Assembly (NCBI RefSeq): GCF_023347255.1
Contig: NZ_CP094466.1
Span: 62,001 to 126,000, forward strand
DNA: 64,000 bases
Source of the DNA: Faecalibacterium sp. I4-3-84
GTDB taxonomy: Bacteria; Bacillota; Clostridia; Oscillospirales; Ruminococcaceae
Direction: 5' to 3'
The notes beneath the pieces are model-generated. The model searched no databases and was not told where the DNA came from. It worked only from the letters and a program-made list of their open reading frames with translations. Made by a program: the position numbers and the translations under genes. Position 1 is the stretch's first letter; every line of letters begins with the position of its first letter. Of the stretch, positions 8,894 to 11,512 are shown in pieces.

Positions 8894-9760
8894 ATGGCAA
8901 AACGATATTCCAAAGCCGTGCACTCAAAAAGACGAAAACAGACTTCTCATGTGCTCAAAAATACGGTCATTCTGCTTTTTTGCGCAGTGGGCATCTGGTT
9001 TGGCAGCTCACTCTGGCATGCAGCGCTGACTCTGCAGACAGCTCAGCCAGCGGAAAGCATCGCCGGTGAAGAATTTCGTCCGCAGGTAGGTGATCCGCCT
9101 TACCGCGTGGTGATCGATGCCGGGCACGGTGGAGCAGACCCGGGTGCAAGGGGAGTGATCGAAGAAAAAGATATGACCGCAGCAACCGCCTCGGAACTGA
9201 TCCGGCTGCTGCAGCAGGACTCTAATTTTATTCCGCTGCAGACCCGTGACAGCCTTGATGAAACCACTACACCCGCCCAGCGTGCCGCCAGAGCGGACGA
9301 ACAGGCACCGCAGCTGCTGCTTTCCATCCACGGCAACTCAGCTGCAAATGGCTCCACTGCATCCGGCTTTGAGTGCTATCCGGCAGTGCCGGGCCGGACT
9401 TGGCATCAGGAAAGCTTTTACTTTGCGCAGCTGCTTGCCAAAGGAATGCAGGCTGCAGGAGCATCTCTGCGTGGGCGCGGGGGAGTCCGATACATTTATT
9501 ATCTGGAAAACGATCAGAAGCAACTGGTGGAAAGCACCCACACCGAGGTGCGTGCAGAGCGAAGCTTTACGTTGCTGGAAGATGTAAATTGTCCGGCAGT
9601 GCTGGCAGAGCAATGCTTTGTAACGAATGAAGCAGATGTTGCACAGTTCGGCAGCGAAGAAGGTTGTAAAAAAACAGCCCGCGTTTATTACGAAGCGATC
9701 TGTGAATACTTTGGCACACAGCCGCAGGCCGAGCAGCTTGCCGGGTTCACTTTAAATTAA
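8894..9760 (+). CDS. N-acetylmuramoyl-L-alanine amidase (Amidase_3)
   Basis: This 288-residue enzyme is expected to hydrolyse the amide between N-acetylmuramic acid and L-alanine in peptidoglycan. Residues 1-20 are basic and cytosolic, 24-45 form a single membrane anchor, and the catalytic domain spans about 68-275. Zinc ligands are visible: His78 in DAGHGG, a Glu in IEEKD (90-91) and His146 in SIHGN; Glu239 in LAEQCFVTNEAD is the likely catalytic residue. The domain is therefore probably active, on the outer face of the membrane. It is monocistronic, flanked by terminators at 8786 and 9839. The anchor could alternatively be a cleaved signal peptide. No SPOR or SH3 wall-binding domain is present. 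Confidence 0.93.
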   Translation: MAKRYSKAVHSKRRKQTSHVLKNTVILLFCAVGIWFGSSLWHAALTLQTAQPAESIAGEEFRPQVGDPPYRVVIDAGHGGADPGARGVIEEKDMTAATASELIRLLQQDSNFIPLQTRDSLDETTTPAQRAARADEQAPQLLLSIHGNSAANGSTASGFECYPAVPGRTWHQESFYFAQLLAKGMQAAGASLRGRGGVRYIYYLENDQKQLVESTHTEVRAERSFTLLEDVNCPAVLAEQCFVTNEADVAQFGSEEGCKKTARVYYEAICEYFGTQPQAEQLAGFTLN

Positions 9761-9838: not shown

Positions 9839-9886
9839 AAGACCGCTGAACTCATAACCAGAAGAGAAGGGCGGTCTTATTTTTTG
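9839..9886 (+). terminator. Terminator after the amidase gene
   Basis: AAGACCGC (9839-9846) pairs with GCGGTCTT (9871-9878), followed by ATTTTTT. It closes the last plus-strand gene before the dif-like site. Confidence 0.85.
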
Positions 9887-9895
9887 ATTGCATAA

Positions 9896-9923
9896 TTTTC
9901 GTATAATGCACGTTATGCGAAAT
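9896..9923. other. dif: Candidate dif / Xer recombination site
   Basis: Two 11-bp arms, TTTTCGTATAA (9896-9906) and TTATGCGAAAT (9913-9923), flank a 6-bp centre (TGCACG). The arms are inverted repeats of each other at 9 of 11 positions. Aligned by hand to the E. coli dif site the 28 bases agree at 19 positions, including ATAATG at the left arm/centre junction and TTATG at the right arm. The site is outside any gene, 384 bases from the stop end of a Xer-like recombinase gene. Gene direction changes from almost all + to mainly - here. This fits chromosome dimer resolution at the terminus; a recombinase-gene-linked mobile-element site is the alternative. Confidence 0.65.
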
Positions 9924-10225
9924 ATAGGGAAGTGAAAAATCTCTATTTTCCTGAATCTGGCCTTTTTCCGCGACCTACGGATCTGCAGCCATCTGTAATA
10001 CCGTATGATTCAACTTTTGCTTTTTTATATTTTTGTGTCTCATTTGTATTTTGGTGCTACAATCTTTTTATGGACTTACAAATTACAAAGCTGCACAGTC
10101 TGCCGCTGCCATGCGCCGCTTGCATTTTATTTTTCTGTGAACGACCATTTGCTCGTACGATTTCAAATCGCTGGCCAGATCACAGCTTATCATTCCATTA
10201 TTTATATTTATATAAATATATCTAT
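9924..10225. other. A+T-rich intergenic region beside the dif-like site
   Basis: This stretch is clearly richer in A+T than its surroundings, especially 10190-10235. Plus-strand frames are open here but have atypical composition, no ribosome-binding site and no recognisable motif, so I regard it as noncoding. TGCTACAAT near 10054-10062 resembles an extended -10 without an obvious gene downstream. Confidence 0.5.
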
Positions 10226-10306: not shown

Positions 10307-11512
10307 TCAGGAATTTCCGTTTCCAGCGTTCGCATCAGGCTTCATTGCAAGCACGGAAGCATCCAGCCCGATGCCATCCTGAGCCGCACCCTCAAAGGCT
10401 TTCATGGGCACAGACGAAAGTTCCTCATCCAGAGCTGAATCCTCTGCTGTCTCCCCTGTTTCCTTTTCTGTTGTATCCAAGATGCGAGAAGATGCTTTGG
10501 ACTTTTTGACCTTGCCCAGCGGGTTTTCTTCAATAGCCGCGCGCACCTGAAATTCCTGTAGATGCGTATAAATTTGTGTGGTAGACACGTTGCTGTGGCC
10601 CAAAAGCTGCTTGAGTGTAAGGATGTCCACATTGCCGGTCTGATACATCAGAGTTGCGGCAGTGTGGCGCAGCTTATGTGTGGAAAAGCCTTTTAATCCG
10701 GCTGCTTTCATTGCACCGGTCACTAGCTGTTCTACCCTGCGGTTCGAGATACGCTCTTTGCGCCGTCGGGTAATAAAGACCGCCTTTTCCTGCGGCAGAA
10801 GCCCCTCCATCGTATTGCGTTTGCCCAGATACAGCCGCAATGCTTCCATGCAGGCATCATTCAGATAAACCATGCGCTCCTTGTGGCCCTTGCCAAACAG
10901 GCGTATCTGGCGGTTTTCCAAATCAATGTCGTCCAGATTCATGCCGACAAGCTCTGCCAGACGCATTCCACAGTTCAAAAACAGCGTCACCATGCAATAA
11001 TCCCGCTCCGGAAAATCGCTTTGGGTCTGCGTGCTTTCCAATAACTCCATGGACTGCTCCGCCGTCAGATATTTGGGCAGTACCTTATCCTGTTTGGGTG
11101 GGTGGATGGCCGCAGTCGGATCTGCATCCAGCCGGTTGACCTGATTGACCAGGTAATCATAAAAGCCGTGCAGGCTTGCCAGCCGCCGGGCCGTTGAGGA
11201 CTTTTTGTTGCCGCACTCGCGGTTTAAAAAGTACAGATATTCGTAGATATCCTCCTTTGTTACGGAGGCCCAGAATGCGGTGTCCAGCCCTTTGGGGTCG
11301 ATATCCTTCATCTCGCTGTCTTCGGGCACAAGCCCACGGCGGCGCTTCATAAAACGGCTGAATCCGCGCAGATCACAGTAGTAGCTGAACGCCGTGTTTG
11401 CGCTTTTGCCCGCGATCACTTCCAGATAGCGGACGTATTCTACAATGTCCGGCGCAGCATCATCGAAGGGCTTGTGCTTGCCGGGATTTTTCTCGTCCAG
11501 ATAGATCGACAT
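10307..11512 (-). CDS. Xer-like tyrosine recombinase with C-terminal extension
   Basis: This 401-residue site-specific recombinase has all catalytic residues: Arg184 (GMRLAEL), Lys208 (FGKGHK), His279 and Arg282 (THKLRHTA), His306 (LLGHSNV) and the nucleophile Tyr315 (TTQIYTH). An N-terminal SAM-like core-binding domain spans about 20-125. XerC/XerD are near 300 residues; here a Lys-rich junction (331-341) is followed by a roughly 60-residue acidic, low-complexity tail. ATG 11512 has AGAGGA upstream. It lies 11 bases downstream of radA, so the two are probably cotranscribed, and its 3' end faces the dif-like site. Most likely it is the chromosomal Xer; an integrase of a lost element is less likely because no element genes surround it. 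Confidence 0.88.
   Translation of the reverse strand: MSIYLDEKNPGKHKPFDDAAPDIVEYVRYLEVIAGKSANTAFSYYCDLRGFSRFMKRRRGLVPEDSEMKDIDPKGLDTAFWASVTKEDIYEYLYFLNRECGNKKSSTARRLASLHGFYDYLVNQVNRLDADPTAAIHPPKQDKVLPKYLTAEQSMELLESTQTQSDFPERDYCMVTLFLNCGMRLAELVGMNLDDIDLENRQIRLFGKGHKERMVYLNDACMEALRLYLGKRNTMEGLLPQEKAVFITRRRKERISNRRVEQLVTGAMKAAGLKGFSTHKLRHTAATLMYQTGNVDILTLKQLLGHSNVSTTQIYTHLQEFQVRAAIEENPLGKVKKSKASSRILDTTEKETGETAEDSALDEELSSVPMKAFEGAAQDGIGLDASVLAMKPDANAGNGNS

Follow-up and report, generated by a model that had tools for sequence, protein, structure and literature searches.

Among the described Xer systems, XerS/difSL of streptococci and lactococci employs one recombinase whose site lies beside its own gene, and difSL is 31 bp long, with an 11-bp centre and unequal arms (available text of PMC5357621). 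XerL of Legionellales is a single recombinase as well and uses a palindromic site with uninterrupted repeats of 10-12 bp, the XerL gene and the site being more than 400 kb apart in L. pneumophila (available text of PMC9765430). For systems with XerCD, dif was predicted in 97 of 100 Firmicutes according to the available part of Kono 2011 (PMC3025954), a table of which may hold some of the sites discussed below under the XerCD name. Nowhere in the available part of its main text does the 2017 review on single and double Xer systems use the terms Clostridi, Ruminococc or Faecalibacterium (PMC5357621). A partial survey of the literature by title and start of the abstract found no published description of the system presented here.

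The locus analyzed lies in a stretch of 64,000 nucleotides, referred to as the window, which spans positions 62001-126000 of the 3,119,411-bp one-contig Faecalibacterium genome G000. It consists of a dif-like site and a tyrosine recombinase gene whose product is labelled XerX, a name coined in the present analysis. One recombinase and a site adjoining its gene are features shared with XerS/difSL, as that system is presented in the available text of the review, whereas XerX-linked sites depart from the 31-bp form with an 11-bp centre in that they have 28 bp and a 6-bp centre, the arms often being perfect. The likeness to XerL/dif, a single recombinase with a palindromic site, is drawn from the published description, and the window site is found 383 bp from its gene, in contrast to the distance given for L. 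pneumophila. Shared with XerCD/dif of E. coli and B. subtilis are the 28-bp 11-6-11 layout, the place at the terminus and the presence of FtsK gamma, but here XerC and XerD do not exceed their cut-offs and both arms have the same sequence in relatives. XerA/dif of archaea likewise has a single recombinase, and XerH/difH of Helicobacter and Campylobacter differs in its arms. We propose that chromosome dimers are, with good probability, resolved at the window site by a single-recombinase Xer system that forms a lineage of its own.

The dif-like site and the replication terminus

The 28-mer reads TTTTCGTATAA-TGCACG-TTATGCGAAAT (Table 1). An earlier note on this DNA had described two 11-bp arms that are inverted repeats of each other at 9 of 11 positions, which a recount on the window returned, and agreement with E. 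coli dif at 19 of 28 positions, which was again obtained. Symmetry by itself was set aside as evidence because 9/11 dyads are common in the window (23 such 28-mers, compared with a mean of 7.8 in five shuffled windows). A 19/28 match to dif occurs once in the window, counting both strands, and 0.4 times per shuffled window; the two properties combined occur once in the window and in none of the five shuffles. The site is intergenic and faces the 3' end of the recombinase gene, and the switch in gene direction described earlier is likewise found here, the open reading frame to the left (8894-9760) being on the forward strand and the long ones onward to about 17 kb mainly on the reverse strand.

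Table 1. Features at the XerX locus in window coordinates.
Feature	Position	Strand	Description
Terminator-like hairpin (putative)	9839..9886	+	AAGACCGC...GCGGTCTT, then T-rich DNA; read from sequence
dif-like site	9896..9923	.	Arms 9896-9906 and 9913-9923, centre 9907-9912
Conserved block	9896..9957	.	The 28 bp and roughly 34 bp next to them on the motif side; 17 downstream genus loci
G-rich flanking motif, AGGGAAG	9926..9932	+	2 bp outside the right arm
xerX	10307..11512	-	401-aa tyrosine recombinase; PF00589 and PF02899; groups in its own clade

The earlier note had also placed the replication terminus in the window. The sole dnaA match over the cut-off in this genome is at position 1,630,814 of 3,119,411 bp, so that the two arcs from the site to dnaA measure 1,558,904 and 1,560,507 bp, and the site is no more than 0.8 kb from the point opposite dnaA. 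Cumulative G minus C over the window peaks at 9714, 182 bp from the site, where a turn near 9.9 kb had been anticipated. With the sampled pieces read from dnaA towards the site, 39 of 41 have a positive GC skew (forty 20-kb stretches, of which one inside the window was dropped, and the window itself split at the site), the exceptions being the pieces beginning at 880,001 and 1,760,001. Besides lying at the terminus, the site occurs once per chromosome: the search for other copies that the earlier note had called for gave a single occurrence with up to three mismatches in 3,119,411 bp, at 71,896.

A terminus-proximal position is also seen for the XerX gene elsewhere. The arc from XerX to dnaA amounts to at least 0.40 of the genome in 15 of 16 other complete genomes (G099 0.46, G142 0.47, G169 0.49, G178 0.475, G253 0.47, G264 0.47, G267 0.49, G281 0.40, G313 0.48, G320 0.50, G336 0.42, G337 0.42, G382 0.50, G442 0.49 and G524 0.50), the exception being G089 with 0.30. 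These arcs measure gene places and not sites, cover the 16 of 27 genomes with a listed XerX place and use genome sizes rounded to 0.1 Mb except for G089, G099 and G142. The corresponding binomial value of 4e-10 against 0.2 is overstated, with G281 borderline and four genomes sharing a genus.

A terminator-like hairpin comes after the amidase-like gene and carries GAGAAGGG at 9864-9871 inside its loop, 24 bp from the site. As a SpoIIIE-type signal, GAGAAGGG was not retained: 84 of 100 listed places fit their replichore, or 88 of 119 if 4 forward and 15 reverse further places are all in the right replichore (binomial 8e-8), and sampled chromosome stretches gave 22 to 11, which is suggestive only.

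Relationship of XerX to known recombinases

The window recombinase falls below the curated cut-offs of the XerC, XerD, XerS and XerA models. It reaches 140.9 bits for XerS (NCBIfam NF003462) against a cut-off of 267, and 192.5 bits for XerA (NF040815) against a cut-off of 220. XerA gives the highest structural Z (21.9), yet with an rmsd of 9.8, in a comparison whose rows were without XerL and XerS. XerH is a weak sequence match of 51 bits and is 22% identical in the structural superposition. The residues assigned to catalysis do not vary in sets of 24 and 30 sequences. A quick tree of 109 rows places 42 XerX rows together with L199, an uncultured Clostridiales entry labelled as other before the tree was built, on one side of a branch of length 1.54 with an SH-aLRT of 100; the remaining 66 rows comprise 46 Xer-like proteins from various other phyla and classes, 14 XerD of Clostridia and 6 second Xer-like proteins, the tree taking in no XerS, XerH, XerA or XerL. 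Matches to the window protein are found in 144 of 148 family genomes at E<=0.001 and in 137 at E<1e-50. With a profile built from 24 family members, at least 150 of 393 genomes of the class give matches of E<=2.5e-126, and 21 of 22 genomes at order level, 10 of the family among them, reach E<1e-120. Judged from its sequence relationships, XerX is a distinct Xer lineage spread across Clostridia.

The same data bear on the reading that the pair is an integrase gene and the attachment site left by a mobile element. The gene does encode a tyrosine recombinase, phages do sit at such sites, and the genome holds 22 tyrosine-recombinase (integrase) domain hits in 3.1 Mb, pointing to many integrated elements. 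However, the E<1e-50 matches throughout the family, the coherent clade, the location near the terminus and the position of the window xerX after mutS2 and the amidase-like gene all argue against a relic, and this origin is hardly credible.

Whether XerX is the only Xer recombinase of its genome bears on how the site would be used. Neither XerC nor XerD exceeds its cut-off in the window's genome; the XerD model (TIGR02225) does so in none of 10 family genomes and in 118 of 393 genomes of the class, and the XerC model (TIGR02224) in none of 41 genomes. These cut-offs are strict, being passed by 2 of 14 control genomes for XerC and 4 of 14 for XerD, and E-values are more telling: 1e-57 to 1e-69 for XerD in family genomes, compared with 4e-99 or better in genomes over the cut-off. 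Weaker Xer-like proteins are present. The window's genome has one at 2.70 Mb that scores 162 bits for XerC, and the family genomes G099, G085 and G016 each have, in addition to XerX, a Xer-like gene that falls outside its clade. A 291-aa integrase at 2.12 Mb, considered as XerD by its length, was rejected when its sequence was read as that of a mobile-element integrase. XerX and XerD co-occur in many Clostridia, and in those the system may work differently. In family f5 (G290, G341, G386 and G475), an XerD-type gene is located about 1.2 kb or less from XerX on the opposite strand. FtsK gamma was found in all 15 genomes tested.

Palindromic sites and a flanking motif in relatives

Perfect 11-bp arms around a 6-bp spacer occur within 500 bp upstream of XerX in 80 of 174 distinct loci (a count made without a consensus, 81 raw, one being a run of N; five are unlike the motif, leaving 75), and 94 loci have no perfect dyad in this range. 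Downstream, 10 dyads with a spacer of 6 were counted in the 174 loci. Odd spacers upstream give 2-7 dyads; spacers of 4, 8, 10 and 12 give 72, 69, 36 and 19, largely the same dyad counted again. Dyads like ATTTCGCTAAA-N6-TTTAGCGAAAT score at least 25 in 57 of 89 family loci (30 best hits and 59 picked mainly since a mismatch-pattern search had missed them) and in none of 89 shuffled ones; 56 of the 57 are upstream of the gene, the window's own being downstream. A score of at least 25 is also reached by 31 of 62 additional loci, part of them from the same family, and no shuffled stretch exceeds 23. With up to three mismatches, the ATTTCGCTAAA-N6-TTTAGCGAAAT-type pattern is present in 82 of 148 family genomes and as a single copy in 76. 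In 61 of the 69 family genomes with listed site places, no more than 0.8 kb separates it from the xer match; five of the eight exceptions (G008, G041, G043, G067, G074, G092, G128 and G129) have the two on different contigs. Linkage of site and gene is wide in the family and normally upstream, a downstream place being peculiar to most of the window's genus. G010, G014, G086, G111, G120 and G140 carry a second or third copy of the palindrome within three mismatches, in some tens of kb away or on another contig, and these copies are possibly traces of site-using elements. In family f51 (L145, L148-L151, L157 and L162), XerX is present, with XerD too in the genomes checked; no palindrome was found near XerX, and no 13-mer outside the gene is common to at least 6 of the 7 loci.

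Arm sequences vary by lineage, for example ATTTCGCTAAA, ATTATACAAAA, ATTGCACCAAA and ACCGCACTAAA, both arms staying matched. This joint change between lineages is taken as the strongest indication of a single protein reading both arms, a reading qualified by the window's own arms, which match at only 9/11. The alternative is a two-recombinase dif of the XerCD type, with the window protein and another recombinase of the genome as partners. It would account for the imperfect arms and for the resemblance of the genus core ATAA...TTAT to classical dif, the protein at 2.70 Mb could serve as a partner, and XerD and XerX genes are neighbours in the f5 genomes. Nevertheless, the lack of XerC or XerD over the cut-off in the window's genome and the perfect-repeat arms that change together in many relatives, perfect also in L286, L287, L294 and L296 of the genus itself, make a two-recombinase site unlikely.

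In the window's genus, the gene was detected at E<=1e-60 in 27 of 31 genomes, with the site downstream in 18 of these loci and upstream in 3 (L133, L297 and L298). The other 6 (L289-L293 and L295) have no site in the 1.3-1.5 kb downstream; it may be further off, the distance in their sister loci L294 and L296 being 1.2 kb. Across the 17 downstream sequences aligned, the mean majority fraction is 0.91-0.96 over the site itself, 0.90 and 0.80 over the adjoining 34 bp and 0.36-0.56 outside. The G-rich motif lies between site and gene in both layouts, an arrangement consistent with the gene having inverted next to a site that stayed in place.

These layouts also bear on the possibility that the palindrome is an operator for the xerX promoter, bound by XerX or a repressor. 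In most relatives that have it, the site is 5-440 bp upstream of the gene, as an operator might be. Yet in the genus it is conserved beyond the 3' end of the gene, its layout is the 11-6-11 of dif, the gene is near the terminus in most genomes examined and filamentous-phage genes abut the site, so that a purely regulatory function is very improbable. A double role as operator and recombination site is possible.

Of 114 tabulated sites, 47 have a flanking motif of the form AGGG[G/A]AG within 13 nt of an arm, in 46 cases at an offset of 2; shuffled flanks give a mean of 0.36 and a maximum of 3, and the next 20 nt give 1. The strict form is absent from the other 67, and the 114 rows, which include near-copies and a few doubtful sites, are not independent. 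It is on the gene side in 43 cases and on the far side in 4. Being found on either side, it is not, as a rule, the ribosome-binding site of the gene. AGGGGAG was also considered as a KOPS and rejected: its polarity of 27 to 3 in a first sample became 18 to 7 in a fresh one, heptamers resembling ribosome-binding sites are similarly polar (AGGAGGA, 71 to 30), 25 of 45 leading-strand copies are near a start codon, and the motif in the window points away from the site.

Phage junctions and proposed mechanism

Mobile elements use dif/Xer in Vibrio and others (available text of PMC5357621). Exact-pattern searches of IMG/VR returned 7, 27, 26 and 8 contigs, 61 of them distinct. Four metagenomic contigs (L345, L347, L358 and L379) carry an XerX gene, each with the palindrome within 0.5 kb upstream of it. 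Beyond the palindrome, on the side away from XerX, each contig has a gene for replication (PF02486, in L347 PF23343) together with one of the Zot family (22.8-26.3 bits against a cut-off of 20.3), a pair found in filamentous phages. One junction per contig is visible, and the arms are of three types, ATTTCGCTAAA twice, ATTATACAAAA and ATTTCGTAAAA. The L345 replication protein has relatives in 12 phage records, the best being 34% identical (Dulem virus 51). L347 and L358 have the G-rich motif on their host side, L345 has it there in part, and in L379 it was not seen. Because filamentous-phage genes are joined to XerX-linked sites, the site probably recombines in nature.

No XerX was found on the other 57 contigs. 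Some of these have the palindrome within DNA of tailed phages, close to genes for terminase or portal proteins. Related tailed-phage contigs have it near the large-terminase gene (L346:2476-2503, L348:3483-3510, L349:1177-1204 and L351:3623-3650); in L346, L348 and L351 the small-terminase gene is on the other side of the palindrome. The palindrome is also present on the terminase- or portal-bearing contigs L353, L359, L361, L382, L385, L394 and L396. Window-type arms with the window's centre occur on no IMG/VR contig, and with any centre on 8, none of which has XerX.

The XerX system is best read as working like XerS/difSL and XerH/difH. XerX would bind both arms, and a homotetramer made of two XerX pairs would join two sites. 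Strands would be cut where the 6-bp centre meets the arms and then exchanged, turning a dimeric chromosome into two monomers at the septum. The pairing of sites is probably brought about by FtsK, whose gamma domain is present. With arms that are nearly identical, the order of strand exchange would have to be set by the asymmetric centre or by the G-rich motif beside one arm. A more specific proposal is offered tentatively and is rather doubtful: a separate clostridial single-recombinase system in which both dif arms have the same sequence and direction comes from the G-rich element lying 2 bp beyond one of them. FtsK gamma might read this element, or XerX might do so through an additional contact, and filamentous phages would use only the symmetric 28 bp and leave the element on the host side.

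The site would give a terminus marker for clostridial chromosomes and show where filamentous phages enter such genomes. If the proposed function is true, the often identical arms would allow the order of strand exchange to be tested without two enzymes, and much of a class that includes many gut bacteria would separate its chromosomes by an enzyme and a site previously not assigned.
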